This document shows, one piece after another, positions 8,102 to 31,721 of a stretch of 64,000 bases of DNA. Both the position numbers and the translations under genes were made by a program. The DNA comes from Phaeodactylum tricornutum CCAP 1055/1. Its lineage: Eukaryota; Bacillariophyta; Bacillariophyceae; Surirellales; Neidiaceae. The notes beneath the pieces are model-generated. The model searched no databases and was not told the DNA's origin. It saw only the letters and a program-made list of their open reading frames with translations. The stretch is taken from assembly GCF_000150955.2 (NCBI RefSeq), contig NC_011698.1:62001-126000 (forward strand). Reading direction: 5' to 3'. Within the stretch, counting starts at the first letter, position 1, and every line of letters starts with the position of its first letter.

Positions 8102-8799
8102 GGGTTGAAGCAGTAGCAGTTAGTTGATGGGTGAACGAAAATAGAAGTAGGAAGAACCTGGGCTGGAATCAGTAACTCTAGGTGTCGGAGAGAGAAAGTA
8201 TCCGATCGATTGTGGTCTCGGTGCAAGCTTTTTTTGGCGTGTGTATCGAGTTATTAGCTGTTCAGTGTTAGCAGGGAACAAACAAACAAACAGAAACGGT
8301 CCCAAAATATCCGAGCCGGACGAGAAGATCGCAATCGCCCACGAGAAAAATCAACCGTCCATTTTCGACGGCCGACTGTCTGTCTGCCTTCCCGACAGGG
8401 ACCATGTGTCGTGGAAGGTGAACGATCCGTCCCGATGGATCGTCATCTCTTTGGCCTTTCCATATGTGCGGTCATAGCGAGGAAGAGAATCGCAAGGAAA
8501 AAAAGACACGCCAGGGTTTTTATATTACGACGAGATCTACTACCTACCTATTTTCTACAGTGAACGCGTCGTTTCCCTACGTTAGCTCGTAGACAGTTAT
8601 TGTTAGTTACTGTTAGCAAACGGAACCTCTCTGTAAAGTTCGCATCTGTGGATCTTACAGAGTTACTACGGGTGCGTACGACCTCTCGACCGTGCATCTT
8701 CCTTTCCTCCCGCTTTCGTTACTCTCACAGAGATACTCCATTCTCATTGTCATTGTCACCCACACAGTCCATTCAATAGTACGTACGTAGCCAGCCCCC
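8102..8799. promoter_or_regulatory. Bidirectional promoter region of Tudor-SN and HEAT gene
   Basis: Two genes start head to head 698 nt apart, so both promoters and 5' UTRs must lie here. I see short A-rich repeats (AAAC tetramers near 8278-8292) and pyrimidine-rich tracts before the plus-strand ATG, but no recognisable TATA box. No coding frame is credible. Confidence 0.5.
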
Positions 8800-13525: not shown

Positions 13526-14350
13526 ATGGCTAGCCACAGCATTCAGACTCGCACTGATGCCTACAAATGTGTTATTGCACTCAACAATATCGGAGTATCG
13601 CTAATGGAACGTGGAGCATATCTACAGGCCGCGCAAACCTTTAAGGAGGCCGTGGTTGCTCTGCAATTGGCGATGCGAGTGGGCCTTCCTCTAGACTTCG
13701 ACGAACAACACGCCGTCAGCTTGGCCGCAATTCATGAATCTGTCCGTTCCGCTTACCAACGAGTCGCAAAATCCGTGCTTTCGTCTGTCGCTACAAGAAC
13801 CGAATGCTTGCATGCCCCCGAAGTTTCGGTCAGATCAATTTCCAACGATGAATGGGATCCTATCGTAATGAAGTCGATTCTCGCTGACTCCGAGCATTCT
13901 TTTTTTTCGAATCCCCTGTGCATTCGCATTGAACCCTCCACATGCGGATTCGAGCAAGAGTTAGGCGACTGCGAGCTCAATGCAGCTATCTTATTGCAAA
14001 ATTTTGGTGTCGCTCAAATGTGCTTGCTAGCGACAACATCAATACGAGAAAAAACTTGCCGGTATCAGAGTGGCGCCATGAAACTCTTTCGAATCGCCCA
14101 TACGATCCTTTTGCAACACCGTGGTGTCATCGAGCACAACGAGAATGATCAGTTGCACACCACTTTAATGATTACGTCCGCTACAACGCTCAATAGCCTC
14201 GGCCAACTGCTCTTGCTCGGAAACCGCGAAGAAGAAGCCTCACAAGTTTCGGCCAATCTGGCAGCTTTGGTGGATTCCGTGACGGAAACCGAAAACCTTC
14301 TGGGCCACGAATACTATTTAAAAACCAGCCGCTCGGCAGCTGCAGCATAG
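13526..14350 (+). CDS. TPR-like orphan protein (copy B of a paralogous pair)
   Basis: This 274-residue protein starts at the ATG of MASHSIQ; the upstream in-frame GTG at 13466 is not used as a start here. It is paralogous to the gene at 1668-2480: CVIALNNIGVSLMERG with FKEAVVALQLA, ISNDEW, CELNAAILLQNFGVAQMCL, AHTILLQ and LNSLGQLLLLG all have counterparts in the same order and spacing, and both end in four alanines. The repeat-like helices resemble TPR half-repeats. By eye identity is roughly one third, so the duplication is old despite the short distance. No targeting signal is visible. Function unknown; lineage-restricted family likely. Confidence 0.8.
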   Translation: MASHSIQTRTDAYKCVIALNNIGVSLMERGAYLQAAQTFKEAVVALQLAMRVGLPLDFDEQHAVSLAAIHESVRSAYQRVAKSVLSSVATRTECLHAPEVSVRSISNDEWDPIVMKSILADSEHSFFSNPLCIRIEPSTCGFEQELGDCELNAAILLQNFGVAQMCLLATTSIREKTCRYQSGAMKLFRIAHTILLQHRGVIEHNENDQLHTTLMITSATTLNSLGQLLLLGNREEEASQVSANLAALVDSVTETENLLGHEYYLKTSRSAAAA

Positions 14351-16819: not shown

Positions 16820-17218
16820 AATGCTTATACTTCCATTTTATGCCGTTTTATGAACACGTCTTTTTGATAATACTGGTCTATAAGCCACAACACCATACAA
16901 CTTTATGCAGTTCGCGCAATGCAGTGCATCCACTAGGTAAAAAAAGTGATCGTTCATCGTTGTATGTAGACTGGGCTTCATTGTTTGAAAAAACTCTCTG
17001 GATGGTGTTTATTGTAGAAACTGGCAGAGCTGAAATCTGAAAGATTGCGAACTCGCCCGAGACACAACGGGATCAACAGGAACAAGAAGTAATAGGCTGA
17101 GGAAGCTAGACGATTCCCTGAGTCTTCTTTTCCCGCCCAGAGGCTCGTCGTTGCGCATTCCATCGAGCACAACCTGAAAAATCAGATTGTCCTGAAGAAA
17201 AAAAAAGAAAAATGAGGC
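16820..17218. other. Intergenic, no gene seen
   Basis: This is 399 nt between the desaturase stop and the tRNA terminator. It contains an A-rich run near 17198-17216 (T-rich on the minus strand) that could serve as a back-up RNA polymerase III stop. No coding frame is credible. Confidence 0.5.
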
Positions 17219-17224
17219 AAAAAA
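17219..17224 (-). terminator. RNA polymerase III terminator (T6)
   Basis: On the minus strand six T residues follow the outer flank of the permuted tRNA by four bases. A second T run (nine T) lies at about 17198-17206. T runs of this length normally end Pol III transcription. Confidence 0.7.
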
Positions 17225-17236
17225 GGTGAGCAGACG

Positions 17237-17326
17237 CCGTAGTCAGGCGCCTTACCATTGGGCCAACAGGTCAGGATGTACAGGGCAATGAAACCTGCCC
17301 GGGATTCGAACCCGGAATCTCCTGAT
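17237..17326 (-). tRNA. Circularly permuted tRNA-Arg(ACG) gene
   Basis: Read on the minus strand, the 3' half comes first (17326-17291): A38, anticodon-stem strand TCAGG, variable loop AGATT, T-stem CCGGG/CCCGG with loop TTCGAAT, acceptor strand GCAGGTT and base T73. An 18-nt spacer (17290-17273) follows. Then comes the 5' half (17272-17237): acceptor GACCTGT, TG, D-arm GCC-CAATGGTAA-GGC, G26, anticodon strand CCTGA, then CTACGG, with U33, anticodon ACG (17240-17238) and G37. Rejoined at 37/38 it gives a cloverleaf: five Watson-Crick pairs in both the anticodon and T stems, three in the D stem, and seven acceptor pairs including two G-U at the ends. The D-arm, CTACG loop and AGATT variable loop resemble yeast tRNA-Arg(ACG) as I remember it. 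Flanks 17333-17340 and 17228-17235 are perfectly complementary. A normal-order reading gives no tRNA. Confidence 0.88.
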
Positions 17327-17377
17327 AACTGAGTCTGCTCAAGCGAGCTCGGCTCTGATGTAATGTAGCATTTTTGG

Positions 17378-17389
17378 ATTATATAAATT
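17378..17389 (-). promoter_or_regulatory. TATA-like element upstream of the permuted tRNA
   Basis: On the minus strand the sequence AATTTATATAAT lies about 40 nt before the first base of the outer flanking helix. Internal A and B boxes are in reversed order in a permuted gene, so an upstream TATA box may help set the start site. Placement is inferred from distance only. Confidence 0.5.
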
Positions 17390-17852
17390 CATAATAAAGA
17401 TTCACAATCTTTTGACTTTAAAAACTCAAATATATCTCTCTTCTCTGACGTCGTTCCCAAACGAAAGCGAGACATATCAGAGCATCTGCTATATCATAAG
17501 TATTCATGTTTTCCTTATACGAACGAGCCTGGCTACGAAGTAATCCACGTATGCTTTTCGTGACGCCGCTACGACCTCCGACGTCGGCATGCCCATATCA
17601 GGATTTCACCGCCAGTGTATTGCGAACCATTTTGGTGTGACGACGGCGATCTATGGAAGATCCCCGCGCCAACGAATCTTGGAAGCTGGCGTGAGCGAGG
17701 GTGAGGAAGAACGCAGACGAGACAAAAGACATGCGTGTTCCGTTCACTTGCGGTTCGCACAAAAACACAAATCTTCCATTCGAAAGACGAACAACGAGCC
17801 TCCCGAATATCCTACGGTTGGTTGCTTAATAACATTGCTTTGACAACTCAAG
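17390..17852. other. Intergenic, no gene seen
   Basis: This is 463 nt between the tRNA promoter and the UGP-PGM start. It carries the 5' region of the fusion gene and no credible frame. Confidence 0.5.
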
Positions 17853-20800
17853 ATGCCTTCTTTCGATCCCATTCGTGTAAGTAAAGTACCACGTACACAA
17901 GCATGATGTTTGAAACTGAAGCGGCTCTAGTTCGAGCGGCGCGGTTGAATCGGAATCGCTAACTCGCGTTTTCGATGACGACGACGGCCAGTCTACTTAT
18001 TCTTTGTGCTACTGTAGGATCTCTCTGCATGTTCTCTCACTGTGAATTTGCGTTCCTTCAGGCAAAAATGGAAGCCGGAGGCTGTGCTCCATCGGCGATT
18101 GCCGCCTTCGAGTCGACCTATGGTAGTCTCGTCTCGGGTGATTCCGGAATGATTTTGGAAGACTCTATTGCGCCCGTCCCCCAGCTGGACAAGACCGCGG
18201 AGCTGGATATTGCACCCAACGCCACCCTTCTTGCCGAGACGGTAGTTCTCAAACTCAATGGTGGACTCGGCACGGGTATGGGTCTGGACAAGGCCAAGTC
18301 CCTGTTGCCAGTCAAGGGGGACGACACCTTTTTGGATTTGACCGCCAAACAAGTCATTCAAATGCGTAAGGAATACGGTTTGAACGTCAAGTTTATGCTC
18401 ATGAATTCGTTTTCTACTTCCGACGATACCTTGAGCTTTTTGAGTTCCAAATACCCTGATCTTGCTTCCGAGGAAGGTTTAGAAATGATGCAAAATAAGG
18501 TCCCCAAGTTGAACGCGGAGACTCTCGAGGTATGAATTTGGTAGTCGAATGGATACAGGTGACCACTCTCATCGGGTTGACTTCTGACGCCATTTCTTTG
18601 CTTCTTTGGATTAGCCGGCATCTTGTGAATCCGATCCGGAAAATGAGTGGTGTCCGCCGGGACACGGTGACTTGTACGCGGCCTTGGTTGGCTCTGGTCG
18701 TCTTGATGCCCTGCTCAAGGAAGGGTTCAAATATATGTTTGTCTCCAATTCGGACAACCTTGGTGCTAGCCTGGACCTTGAAATTCTGACTTACTTTGCC
18801 GAGAAGAATGTACCCTTCTTGATGGAGTGCTGCGAACGTACAGAAAACGACAAAAAGGGAGGGCACTTGGCCGTCCGCAAATCCGATGGACAACTTATTC
18901 TTCGGGAATCTGCTATGTGCGCTGAAGAGGATGAAGATGCATTCAGTGATATCAGCAAGCACCGCTTTTTCAACACCAACAATTTGTGGGTTCGTCTCGA
19001 TAAACTCAAGGAGATCATCGACCGCAATGGCGGCTTTATTCCTCTGCCCATGATCAAAAACAAAAAGACGGTCGACCCCAAGGACGACTCGTCGACCCCG
19101 GTACTGCAGTTGGAAACCGCTATGGGTGCCGCTATTGAATGTTTCGAAGGCGCCAGCGCGGTGGTTGTTCCTCGCACACGCTTTGCGCCCGTCAAAAAGT
19201 GCAGCGATCTGCTCTTGCTGCGCTCCGATGCATACTTGCTCGTGGACCACAAGCCGGTACTCAATCCAGCCTGCAACGGGAGCGCGCCCGTGATCAATCT
19301 CGACAGCAAACTATACAAGCTGGTCGGCGCCTTGGAAGAAGCAACCCAGGACGGCATTCCGTCCCTCGTCAAGTGCGACAAATTGACTATCAAGGGTTTG
19401 GTCCGGATGTCGAAAAAGACCAAGTTTGTGGGTGATGTCAAGATTGTCAACTCGAGCGCCGAATCTAAGTTTGTGCCCACCGGTGAAGTAACAGGGGAAC
19501 ACGATCTGACGTCTAATGCTGGTCTTGGCAAGCTAAAGCCCACCTCTGTTTCAACAGCACCAATTGCGGGACAAAAGCCTGGTACTTCAGGACTCCGGAA
19601 GAAGGTTGCCGAATTCAAGAAGGAAAACTACCTTAACAATTTTGTACAAGCTGCTTTTGACGCCATCAAGGCCAGTGGTACGGACATATCGAAGGGGTCC
19701 TTGGTAATTGGTGGTGATGGTCGCTACTTCAACCCTGAAGCAATCCAAATACTTATTCAGATGGGTGTTGCTAACGGCGTCAGACGTTTCTGGATTGGAC
19801 AGGACGGCCTCTTGTCGACACCCGCCGTTTCTGCGATCATTCGGGAAGGCGGCCCGCGTTGGCAAAAGGCATTTGGAGCCTTTATTTTGACGGCTAGTCA
19901 CAATCCCGGTGGCCCAACGGAAGATTTTGGTATCAAGTACAACTGCGAACATGGTGAGCCCGCTCCGGAGAGGATGACGGATGAAATTTACGCCAACACA
20001 ACGACGATTAAGTCCTACAAGATTTGTAAGGAATTCCCCAACATTGACATTGGCGCTGCGGGCCACTCCAAGATCATGTCTGACGACGGCAGCGCCGAAG
20101 TCAATATTGAAGTAATTGATTCCACCGAAGCTCACGTCAAGTTGTTGAAATCTATTTTTGATTTCTCGGCCATCAGAGGGCTGTTGGATCGCCCCGACTT
20201 TTCCATGGTCTACGACGCCATGCACGGTGTCAACGGGCCGTACGTAAAAAAAGTATTCTGCGATATTCTGGGGCAGGACCTCTCCGTCACACTGAACTGT
20301 GTCCCCAAGGACGACTTCAACGGAGGCCATGCCGACCCCAACCTCACGTACGCCAAAGAGCTTGTTGCCGTCATGGGGCTTAATCGCAAGGGCGAAAAGA
20401 TCGATATGGGCGGACGTCCTATTCCCAGCTTTGGTGCGGCCGCCGACGGCGACGGAGACCGCAACATGATTCTGGGCACACAGTTTTTTGTCAGTCCGTC
20501 CGATTCCTTGGCAGTCATTGTTGCCAACGCCGACACCATTCCATTCTTCCGCACGCAAGGTGGACTCAAGGGCGTCGCGCGGTCCATGCCAACGTCCGGC
20601 GCCGTCGATCTCGTCGCCAAGGACCTGAACTACAGTTTGTTTGAAACACCTACGGGATGGAAATACTTCGGGAACCTGATGGATTCCAAAGAGCTTTTTG
20701 ACGGTGCCGAATACACTCCGTTTATTTGTGGGGAAGAATCGTTCGGCACAGGCTCCGATCACATTCGCGAAAAGGACGGACTTTGGGCCGTGCTGGCTTG

Positions 20801-21296
20801 GCTCAGCATTTTGGCGCACGCCAATACTAACAGCCTAAGTGACACACTGGTGACCGTGGAAGACATTGTCAAGGCTCATTGGGCAAAGTACGGACGCAAC
20901 TACTACAGCCGCTGGGATTTCGAGAACATGAATGCGACCAAGGCGAACGCCATGATGGACAAGATGCGGGCGGAAACAGACGCGAACACGGGCAAGACGG
21001 TGGGCAAGTACTCGATCGAAAAGTCCGACGACTTTGTGTACGTGGATCCCGTGGACGGCTCGGTGGCCAAGAAGCAGGGGATGCGGTTCCTAATGACGGA
21101 TGGCTCGCGGATTATTTTCCGTTTGAGTGGCACGGCGGGCAGTGGCGCCACGGTCCGCATGTACATCGAACAGTACGAACCGACGAAGATTGACATGGTG
21201 GCTTCAGAGGCTTTGGCAGATTTGATTCGAGTCGCACTGGATTTATCTGACCTCAAGGGATTCCTCGGAACTGAAGAACCAACCGTAATTACGTAA
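17853..21296 (+). CDS. UGP/PGM: UDP-glucose pyrophosphorylase / phosphoglucomutase fusion
   Basis: I model exons 17853-17876, 18062-18529 and 18615-21296 (1057 residues). Intron 1 is GTAAGT...TTCAG (185 nt); intron 2 is GTATGA...TTAG (85 nt). Both are in phase 0. The first exon gives MPSFDPIR followed by AKMEAGG. Residues 1-480 are a UTP-glucose-1-phosphate uridylyltransferase, with the nucleotide-binding LKLNGGLGTGMG loop. From about residue 495 the chain is a phosphohexomutase: phosphoserine loop LTASHNPGG (about 589), metal loop DGDGDRN (about 774), sugar loop CGEESFG (about 872) and phosphate loop RLSGTAGS (about 999). The fusion links glucose-6-P to glucose-1-P to UDP-glucose in one chain, feeding chrysolaminarin and glycan synthesis. 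Such fusions are known in diatoms and relatives. An alternative ATG at 17975 would add a hydrophobic leader. Confidence 0.92.
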
Positions 21297-28543: not shown

Positions 28544-31500
28544 CTACCAAGGCATGGTAGTCTGCTTCGAGCGATCCCCTCGATTCTGAAAAAAAGCGGA
28601 TCCCTGCTGCGCCAAGATGCTGTTAACCCGACGCCGATCAACAAAGCCTTGATTCCAGCCGCCCCCGTCTCCCGAGAAAAACCCTTCCGACATCATACGG
28701 CGCCGACGTCGCACTTGGACCATGTGCTGACGATCCTCTGGTTCTAACAGCGATTCGTTGTGTACAACATATCGCAGTTTCTTTTCCAAGTTCTTCGCCG
28801 TTTCTGTCTTGATGGGAGAAACGGACAAAAGCTCATCACTTGCAATGATGTCGCCGGGCTCCTCACCAATAAGTGCACGAAACATGATTTTGCCGAAATC
28901 AACCAATACCAATGTTCCGAGGTTGAAAAGAAGAATCCAAACCACATTTAACCCCGACAACTCACTCCCGTACATTGCAATGAATGCACTACCGGCACAA
29001 GTGCCCAACACTGAAATAATCAAAAATATGGAAGGTGTCGAGTACAGCATGGATCCGGGGGCACGCACCGAGAAAATCATAAGTTCCGTAACCAGGGTCA
29101 AATGAAACCAAATAAAACCTCGCGTTTCCGACGAACACGCTCTATTGAGTGCAATTGGCCCGTCCAAATCTTTAGCATGATCCATGATGAAGATAAAAGA
29201 AAGACCCAACGCAGTCTGGCAAATGCCGTAGTAGAGAGACATTAGCACCAACTTGCTGGCTCGAGGAAGCTGTGGTTTCGTTGTGGCGGACGCATTGTCG
29301 TATGCCACAGGAATCATAGAAATATCATTCAACAATGCCAATATGATGACCAACAATGAGTCAACTGCGCAGCCCGACGCAAATATGATGATGGAGAGAG
29401 TCAGGACCATGATAATCGACGCTGCTACGCGATAAATCACGTATCCTTTAATGCGTAGAAAGATACGGCGGGACTCCAGAACCGCACCATAAATCGGACT
29501 GAGACCGGGCTCGGTAAGAATGAGGTCTGCCGCATTCTTGGCGGCGTCGGTGGCTCCTTCAACGGCAATTCCCACCTGAGCGGCCGAGAGGGCTGGAGCA
29601 TCGTTAACACCCTAGACGATACGGTGACCAAAATTGGTTTCAAATGAGTAAGATGAAACGACCACATCCTGGCAACACCAACATCATCACTTACATCCCC
29701 AGTCATGCCTGTCACAATCCCGTATTCGTTGCGGAGAATCATGACAACCTCACGTTTGTCACTCGGTAGAACTGCCGCGAAGCCGTCCGCCTCCCATACA
29801 AGTCGTTTCTTATCCTGACTAGATGCATGACGAATCTCTTCTCCGGTTCGAATGTCCGTTCCCAGACCGATCAAACGAGCGGTCTCTTTTCCCACTGTAG
29901 TCAAAATGCAGCGGTGTCAAAAGAGAAAGCCCGAAGGGGAACTACTAGCATACCGGTCCTTTCGAAAGAGATACATACCATTCTGATGATCGCCCGTGAT
30001 CATTTTGATCGAAATGTTGGCGTGATGGAGCGATTCAATTGTCGCCCGGGTATCTTCCCGTGGAGGATCCAACATTGGTACGAGTCCGGCAAATTTCCAG
30101 ACCGGATTCTTCATTGTCCGAGCGTTACCGAAACAGACGCCAATCCCGATCGTCTTGTACCCCGCCTTGCTCAAACCCGTATCGACGTTTCCCACGCGAT
30201 CGAGAAAGTCCCGATCGGCCGCCCGGTTGACCTGCCATTGAAGTTCGTGATCGTCCTCGCCTCCAGCTTGGGTATTGACAATTTTGGCCGGCAAGCCCTT
30301 GGCAATCGTGATGGTTTCGTTGCCGTGTCCGACAAAGGCCACCACGCGTTTCACGGTGGGGTTGAACCCGATGATTTCGGTTTGCACGTAATCGTCTTTT
30401 TCGTTGGCTTTGGCCGACTGTAAAAAGGCGGCAACCACGGCTCGATCAATCGGATCGTCTTTTTTGTCGGGATTGGAACACAGGTAGGCGTACAACAGGA
30501 CTTGCTCCGTGGTAAAGCCCTCGGCCGCAAAGACTTGTTCCGGAATCACGGACATGTTGGCCGTGGTGAGTGTCCCTGTTTTGTCACTGGAGTATTCCCA
30601 GCAAATAATAAACCGAAACGTGAGTATTGAACGTGCTGTTATTACATATATACACTTGCATACACACATACACACACGCCAACGTACCTGCACAACATGG
30701 ACATGGAGGCAATATCTTGTAGAGCGGGAATGGACGTGACAATGGCGTGATGTTCCTTGGCGAGGAAGGAGGCTCCCAGAGCCAGGTTTACCTGTACGAC
30801 CAGGGGCAGGGCGACGGGGATGGACGCAATGAGGATGGACAAGGCGTCCAGAATCGTTTCCTTGACGTTGTCGTCAAAGCCATCGTAGACGATTCCCTTG
30901 ACGAGTAGGACGGCGAGTACGACAATGAGTGAACCGGCAATGAGCATCTGAACGACCTTCATAATTTTTTGCTGAAAGACGGAAACGATCCGCACGGACT
31001 TGTCCTGTAGAATGTCTACCTGCGCTTGTCCAATTTCGGTGGCCGTACCGATACGGAGGACTTGTCCGTAGCATTCACCGGCCGTGACGGTGGTTCCGGA
31101 CAAGAGTGTCCGTCCGTGTTCGGCACTGGGATACTTGCGGGGCAAAGGTTCGCCGGTGAGTGCGGCGGTATCGAGCTGGACAACGTCACCGGAAATCCAG
31201 AGAACGTCGGCGGGGACAATGGTCCCGCCCACTAAAAAGACAATATCACCCGGGACGAGCTGCTTGACGAGAAGGCTGGCTGTGAGGCCGTCCCGGCGGA
31301 CGGCGATTTCGGAATCTAAACTGGCGCTGACGGCTTGTAGACTCTTCTTGGCGTGGTACTCTTCCCGGAATCCGAGACAGCCGTTGACGAGTAGAATGCC
31401 TAGAATGATCCCGAAATCGATGTAATCTTGGACGGCGAGGGAGACGATGGCGGCGAGTTCAATGAGAAAGGGCAAGAATCCGACGAATTGTCGGACGAAG

Positions 31501-31721
31501 AGTAGATAGAGGGGTGTGTCGGGGACGGGTATTTCGTTGGGACCGTAGCGAGCCAAGGCTTGGGCGACTTGTTCCGAGGTTAATCCGGATGTGGGATCCG
31601 TCGGTACCCAGTCATATTCACCTTCCGTGGGCTGTTGGGGGATCGTGCTCGTCGTGGGGTGGGTACCGCCCCCAATGGCGGCGGTTTCGGTGAGACGGCC
31701 TCCTTCTTCCAGATCCGGCAT
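28544..31721 (-). CDS. P-type IIIA plasma-membrane H+-ATPase
   Basis: There are four exons on the minus strand: 31721-30688, 30586-29979, 29894-29695 and 29611-28544. Introns of 101, 84 and 83 nt are all GT-AG with matching phases, giving 969 residues. The start is ATG of MPDLEEGG. Hallmarks in order: N-terminal cation-ATPase domain (GLTSEQVAQALARYGPNEIP), actuator motif LTGEPLP (TGE), the PVALPLV membrane helix, phosphorylation motif CSDKTGTLT (Asp at about 346, made by splicing exons 1 and 2), MITGDH, and the hinge TGD-GVNDAPAL (about 613, split by intron 3). About ten membrane segments are visible. The class pumps protons out of the cell and is related to yeast Pma1 and plant AHA pumps. 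The C-terminal tail is basic and arginine-rich (RRRRRMM) and could be regulatory. A vacuolar location cannot be excluded. Confidence 0.93.

Follow-up and report, generated by a model that had tools for sequence, protein, structure and literature searches.

Circularly permuted tRNA genes, in which the two halves of the tRNA are encoded in reversed order, have been described in Cyanidioschyzon merolae, prasinophytes, Auxenochlorella, chlorarachniophyte nucleomorphs, and Thermofilum (open-access text of PMC3978253, PMC4033280, PMC4494063, PMC12633428, PMC12636532, PMC13353863, PMC3218864, PMC8450103, PMC4090602, PMC10085705, and PMC9433436). In the pathway published for permuted algal tRNAs, a linear precursor is cut at a splice motif and ligated into a circle, from which RNase P and tRNase Z remove the spacer, followed by CCA addition (PMC3978253, section 6). 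The spacers of the eukaryotic genes span 5-74 nt in Table 1 of PMC3978253; for type II genes in general, a spacer of 1-74 nt with neither promoter nor terminator is expected, and no CCA is encoded in eukaryotes.

Several of these systems resemble the locus analyzed here, each with its own differences. The type II genes of Ostreococcus, Micromonas, and the Bigelowiella natans nucleomorph, as presented in PMC3978253, share with it the 37/38 junction, a relaxed splice motif, a short spacer, an almost complete lack of other introns, and, upstream of some of them, AT-rich DNA, but they belong to the green lineage and represent the isotypes Ser, Cys, Leu, iMet, Asn, and Arg(TCT), with Arg(ACG) not listed in that source. 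The permuted genes of C. merolae share the reversed halves, the upstream TATA-like site, and the downstream T run, and 6 of 11 are joined at 37/38; according to the same source, they differ in using several junction positions, in having an extra intron in 4 of 11 genes, and in that the permuted Arg tRNA is CCT, joined at 59/60. The permuted genes of Auxenochlorella (PMC12636532), which are likewise nuclear, have reversed halves, and were absent from the first tRNAscan-SE set, come from a green alga. Outside tRNA genes, the bacterial YrlA RNA (RF02553) has the same order of T arm, closed acceptor stem, and D arm between paired ends, but it is no tRNA gene, and its middle helix is absent from the diatom locus.

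An earlier interpretation of this DNA made from the letters alone (hereinafter, the sequence-only reading) named Cyanidioschyzon merolae, some green picoalgae, and a nucleomorph as known carriers of permuted genes, and none from diatoms. Our search of the open-access literature likewise found no permuted tRNA reported from a diatom or any other stramenopile. The locus is thus a known kind of gene in a lineage for which no report was found in the open-access literature. A permuted gene in the nucleus of a diatom would extend the range by a whole branch, the stramenopiles, since the carriers described in these sources are a single red alga, a number of green algae, the nucleomorphs of chlorarachniophytes, and a single archaeon.

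The locus occupies positions 17237-17326 on the minus strand of the window, that is, the whole 64-kb stretch of DNA that was analyzed. Judged from its sequence, it is most probably a functional diatom nuclear gene for tRNA-Arg(ACG), circularly permuted and of type II (37/38). Its parts, in the order of transcription, are as follows.

17380..17385, minus strand: TATATA, TATA-like, candidate upstream Pol III promoter element, starting 59 nt upstream of the 3' half
17327..17341, minus strand: leader, starting with TGAGCAGAC (17341-17333), which is one strand of the outer helix, followed by UCAG and by the UU that belongs to the bulge at the 3' splice site
17326-17291, minus strand: tRNA 3' half, ATCAGGAGATTCCGGGTTCGAATCCCGGGCAGGTTT (36 nt), with A38, the 3' strand of the anticodon stem, variable loop, T arm, 3' strand of the acceptor stem, and U73
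17290-17273, minus strand: intervening spacer, CATTGCCCTGTACATCCT, 18 nt between the acceptor ends, with no encoded CCA
17272-17237, minus strand: tRNA 5' half, GACCTGTTGGCCCAATGGTAAGGCGCCTGACTACGG (36 nt), with the 5' strand of the acceptor stem, D arm with U20, 5' strand of the anticodon stem, and C32 U33 ACG G37
17227..17236, minus strand: trailer, in which C(+1), part of the bulge at the 5' splice site, is followed by GTCTGCTCA, the strand that pairs with the leader
17219..17224, minus strand: TTTTTT run, candidate Pol III terminator, 12 nt after the 5' half

The halves are thus reversed on one strand, the 3' half lying 18 nt upstream of the 5' half, and the order that the sequence-only reading had assigned to them, with the T-arm half before the D-arm half, is correct. 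When joined at 37/38, the halves yield a 72-nt tRNA that ARAGORN calls tRNA-Arg(acg). Its acceptor stem consists of 7 bp (5 Watson-Crick and 2 G-U pairs), the D stem of 3 bp, the anticodon stem of 5 bp (CCTGA/TCAGG), and the T stem of 5 bp; the conserved bases U8, A14, A15:U48, G18G19, A21, U33, G37, A38, U54U55C56, and A58 are present, and the D loop reads A14 A15 U16 G18 G19 U20 A21. The cloverleaf that had been proposed after swapping the halves, with all stems paired, U33, ACG, and G37, is therefore borne out and accepted by ARAGORN, and the join falls exactly at 37/38, with G37 ending the 5' half and A38 starting the 3' half. To the permuted tRNA-Arg(ACG) so recognized, the present analysis adds the leader/trailer helix with its splice-site bulges, the TATA-like site, the T run, and U20. 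The joined tRNA also has U73 and a G1-U72 wobble pair, both unusual in eukaryotic tRNA-Arg.

In its natural order (221 nt), the locus yields no tRNA in the standard mode of ARAGORN, nor does the whole 64-kb window in that mode, with or without introns; the lax mitochondrial mode makes 18 calls in the whole window, the permuted locus not among them. Rfam at gathering cut-offs gave no matches. If the locus is what it appears to be, diatom tRNA sets compiled with standard tools may miss genes. A permutation-aware scan, which the sequence-only reading had suggested, was run on the window in a strict form that specified a T arm, 7/7-bp acceptor pairing across a gap of 3-89 nt, and then an A box; the anticodon stem, the anticodon loop, and the flanks were left out of its criteria. 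It returned no match on the plus strand and one on the minus strand, the tRNA-Arg(ACG) locus alone, compared with one match in total in 300 dinucleotide shuffles of the window searched on both strands. A laxer ARAGORN scan based on tandem duplication also found only this locus in the window, in seven sub-windows, one of which was read as tRNA-His. Some match also came from shuffled sequence, in 21 of 150 shuffles and in 37 of 300 (7 of 300 a confirmed match with an intron at 37/38, and 1 of 300 one with both box motifs), so the lax scan is poor evidence by itself and was replaced by the strict one.

Beside the 37/38 junction, the leader TGAGCAGAC and the trailer GTCTGCTCA form a 9-bp helix with no mismatches, a feature used in none of the scan criteria. 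When 20,000 pairs of stretches with identical spacing were drawn at random from the window, 35 reached a helix of 9 bp, as did 11 of 20,000 shuffled pairs. The segment separating this outer helix from the anticodon stem is 7 nt long on both strands. Read as a bulge-helix-bulge, the 5'-half side is C32 U33 A34 C35 followed by the bulge G36 G37/C(+1), and the leader side is U C A G followed by the bulge U U/A38. In splice motifs of this kind, the anticodon-loop/intron pair is that of position 32 with -3, and cuts follow the second bulge base. The locus has two 3-nt bulges, and in the central helix 2 of 4 pairs are possible (C32-G(-3) and U33-A(-4)), whereas the other two cannot form; in ViennaRNA, both central pairs together cost 2.6 kcal/mol (-38.0 with them vs -40.6 without). 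The bulge-helix-bulge described in PMC4090602 comprises a 4-bp helix and two 3-nt bulges; on the pairs that its bases allow, the junction motif here is a relaxed bulge-helix-bulge, the strict form being ruled out by the 2 of 4 central pairs. According to section 8 of PMC3978253, relaxed motifs are found at 37/38 in the permuted tRNAs of green algae, and the yeast splicing endonuclease uses the anticodon-loop/intron pair.

The anatomy of the locus fits the published pathway, each step of which is deduced here from sequence. Pol III would produce one transcript comprising the leader, 3' half, spacer, 5' half, and trailer. By likeness to C. merolae, TATATA is a candidate Pol III promoter element; the TATA-like site of the red alga lies within 50 bp and is accompanied by a T stretch (PMC3978253, section 4), and that of the diatom gene, at 59 nt, is slightly farther away. 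The 18 nt of the spacer contain no T run, and beyond the T6 run downstream of the 5' half there are further T runs of 5 and 9. The tRNA-splicing endonuclease would then cleave both bulges, and a ligase would seal G37 and A38 together into an RNA circle of 90 nt, from which RNase P and tRNase Z would excise the spacer, with CCA added afterward. Conversion of A34 to inosine would allow the tRNA to read CGU, CGC, and CGA. In 17 of the 23 listed ORFs (all except those starting at 29917, 30642, 32115, 50758, 55298, and 56986), these codons occur 132, 166, and 94 times, respectively, together accounting for 392 of 569 Arg codons, so that a tRNA-Arg(ICG) would be in demand.

The predicted energies count against easy folding of the precursor and the circle. 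With the acceptor stem enforced, the linear precursor reaches -45.2, a near tie with the best fold at -45.3 (ViennaRNA), and in its ensemble the acceptor stem has a probability of 0.12-0.14 and the D stem of 0.12. For the 90-nt circle, the prediction is a misfolded structure at -26.6 in preference to the cloverleaf at -19.3, and the acceptor, D, and anticodon stems all have a probability of 0.0. The fold of the precursor has a z-score of -1.95, with 8 of 200 shuffles equally or more stable. These energies leave out tertiary contacts, proteins, and modified bases.

This competition between folds around the spacer, along with U73 and G1-U72, is what might be expected if the rearrangement were real and the copy a relic or a spare, untranscribed or unneeded, with intact tRNA-Arg(ACG) genes elsewhere doing the work. 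We consider such a relic unlikely, given that 20 of 20 stem pairs, the bases of the tertiary interactions, the anticodon loop, the T run, and the perfect 9-bp pairing of leader and trailer have all been preserved, and that nothing would maintain an outer helix, otherwise without use, once the gene was dead. Another possibility is that the arrangement is an assembly artefact or reflects the random breakdown of two ordinary tRNA-Arg genes in tandem. An artefact would not place 9 bp of pairing exactly at the splice sites. In one published model of origin, a gene is duplicated in tandem and the outer halves are then lost (section 10 of PMC3978253), but the flanks contain no traces of outer halves: the best ungapped matches are 16/36 upstream and 18/36 downstream, a chance level, as 1883 and 616, respectively, of 1990 random stretches reach these values. 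Artefact or decay is accordingly a very improbable explanation of the locus.

The strand topology is also that of a tRNA mimic of the YrlA type, a bacterial Y-RNA-like molecule that would not be a tRNA gene at all. The Rfam model RF02553 aligns over its full length to 17341-17224 with 29.4 bits and an E-value of 1.6e-4 (351 bases searched), and the T, acceptor, and D arms as well as the outer stem of the model are all included in the alignment. The gathering score, however, is 69, and any precursor of a permuted tRNA would possess the aligned arms. The middle helix of YrlA is not kept, as 4 and 8 columns are deleted there and non-standard pairs occur, and matches below the cut-off were obtained in 11 of 14 ordinary control genomes. 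Moreover, a mimic has no need of a complete anticodon loop, whereas the locus has one, with ACG, U33, G37, and A38. With 29.4 against 69 bits, the loss of the middle helix, and the sub-threshold matches in 11 of the 14 control genomes, we rejected the Y RNA identity, which appears hardly credible for this locus. Other sub-threshold Rfam matches in 17100-17450 included SCARNA7 (23.8 bits vs 65) and a T-arm piece of tRNA (14.3 vs 29).

The interpretation of the locus as a working permuted gene thus draws on the ARAGORN call that appears only after joining, the rarity of strict-scan matches, the helix, the splice geometry, the TATA-like site, and the T run. The 37/38 junction, the 18-nt spacer, and the lack of an encoded CCA, all of which are inside the range published for algae, also speak for it, as do U20, the demand for the Arg codons, and the adjoining gene for a fusion of UDP-glucose pyrophosphorylase (UGPase) and phosphoglucomutase (PGM). 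Counted against it are U73, G1-U72, the 2 of 4 central pairs, the unfavorable predicted folds, and the failure of exact patterns to find a relative in the prokaryote and virus collections.

U20 also bears on the origin of the gene. The available nuclear tRNA-Arg of diatoms has C20 or U20, "without exception" in the text of Igloi 2022 (PMC8975779), although in Table 2 of that paper A appears alongside C/U in Asterionella and alongside U in Chaetoceros. The same source reports A20 in all other algal groups surveyed (103 species, including eustigmatophytes, pelagophytes, and brown algae). Departures from A20 are also seen in fungi, some Rhizaria, and possibly some other stramenopiles. The permuted tRNA, with U20, conforms to the diatom rule. 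Considering U20 and the absence of Arg(ACG) from the permuted genes listed in Table 1 of PMC3978253, we infer that the gene arose from the diatom's own tRNA-Arg rather than having been acquired from a red or green alga. The position-20 mark serves as an origin tag of the gene and bears on the question of an ancient versus a repeated recent origin of permutation. A broader proposal, which we put forward tentatively and regard as possible rather than probable, is that diatoms make their main cytosolic tRNA-Arg(ICG) only via a permuted gene and a circular RNA; the gene would have arisen within diatoms from their own U20 tRNA-Arg, so that permuted tRNA genes would have originated independently once more, in the nucleus of a stramenopile, and ordinary finders would have overlooked an essential diatom tRNA.

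The gene context is consistent with a diatom genome. The UGPase-PGM fusion gene adjoins the tRNA locus at 17975-21296 on the plus strand, with the first ATG of the reading at 17975, an intron at roughly 18.53-18.65 kb, and an ORF at 18735-21296 after the intron. As reported in PMC8541152, this fusion has been described in Phaeodactylum tricornutum, Thalassiosira pseudonana, and Nannochloropsis gaditana, so the fusion alone points to a photosynthetic stramenopile rather than to a diatom. Taken together, U20 (PMC8975779) and the neighboring fusion gene (PMC8541152) support the diatom-like genome that had been proposed from the sequence. The window contains 23 ORFs of at least 250 aa, and 13 of 17 scanned proteins belong to a Pfam family, several of them typically eukaryotic (Tudor-SN, Vps54, and CAP-Gly with LRR). 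From U20, the fusion gene, and these proteins, we regard a diatom source as very probable. Two proteins of about 270 aa, encoded at 1668-2480 on the minus strand and 13526-14350 on the plus strand, appear related by eye (motifs "ALNNIGV" and "AAILLQN") and have no Pfam match at 1e-4; they resemble a family abundant in diatoms. At 28544-31721 on the minus strand, a P-type ATPase is apparently split over several ORFs by introns, with Pfam matches in the 30642-31721 ORF and none in 28544-29410.

Exact-pattern searches of prokaryote and virus collections, in which a diatom gene would be a stray, found no relative of the gene. Among viral contigs, the first exact pattern matched 12 loci; for 11 of the 12 matches ARAGORN reads the surrounding cluster as ordinary tRNAs, which is not the case for the twelfth (L008); the exact Arg D-half pattern had no matches, and the exact U20 pattern had two, both in ordinary tandem tRNAs. 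In prokaryotic genome contigs, all 15 loci matching the exact pattern are located in tandem tRNAs of planctomycetes or their kin.

Phage-like contigs of 78-529 kb carry permuted-tRNA-like elements, often among tRNA genes, in the order T arm, 3' acceptor strand, short spacer or hairpin, 5' acceptor strand, and D arm; these elements are no evidence on the diatom gene. On the 452-kb contig IMGVR_UViG_3300037484_000445 (L008, L030, and L031), they are located at about 8720, 10748, 12027, and 22006, and other such elements occur in L036, L040, L046, L049, L056, L066, L067, L078, L106, L114, L122, and L127. We aligned 20 elements, namely, 16 of 32 candidate rows outside intact tRNAs (from 150 loci) and 4 from G001. 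ACA[ACT]GC precedes the T arm in 20/20 aligned elements and ACTCG occurs downstream in 17/20, the elements having been selected by acceptor pairing and ACAAGC having itself been the search pattern for part of the loci, among the matches listed. In 13 of the 20, read by eye, the element is followed by an anticodon-like arm of 5 perfect base pairs and a loop of 7 nt, which would place the break close to the variable loop. Ro60 (TROVE) was found in none of 13 phage-like contigs and the RtcB ligase in 6 of 13, and the one phage-like contig searched for the splicing endonuclease (PF01974) had no match. The element at 8720 scores 29.4 bits against YrlA, under the cut-off. These elements could be permuted phage tRNAs or a new family of tRNA mimics.

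Two more permuted-tRNA-like elements with other flanks are present in the same phage array, at 2240-2425 and 2440-2580 of L008. The fold of the first has a z-score of -1.62, with 12 of 200 shuffles as stable; the second folds as a permuted cloverleaf (z-score = -3.59, 0 of 200 shuffles as stable) and, by eye, is without U33. Five further matches with permuted-tRNA topology come from L004, L014, L022, and L023, four of them in three planctomycete loci. With their paired ends, T arm, closed acceptor, and D arm, these look like YrlA-type Y RNAs, a label assigned by eye and not by a model match.
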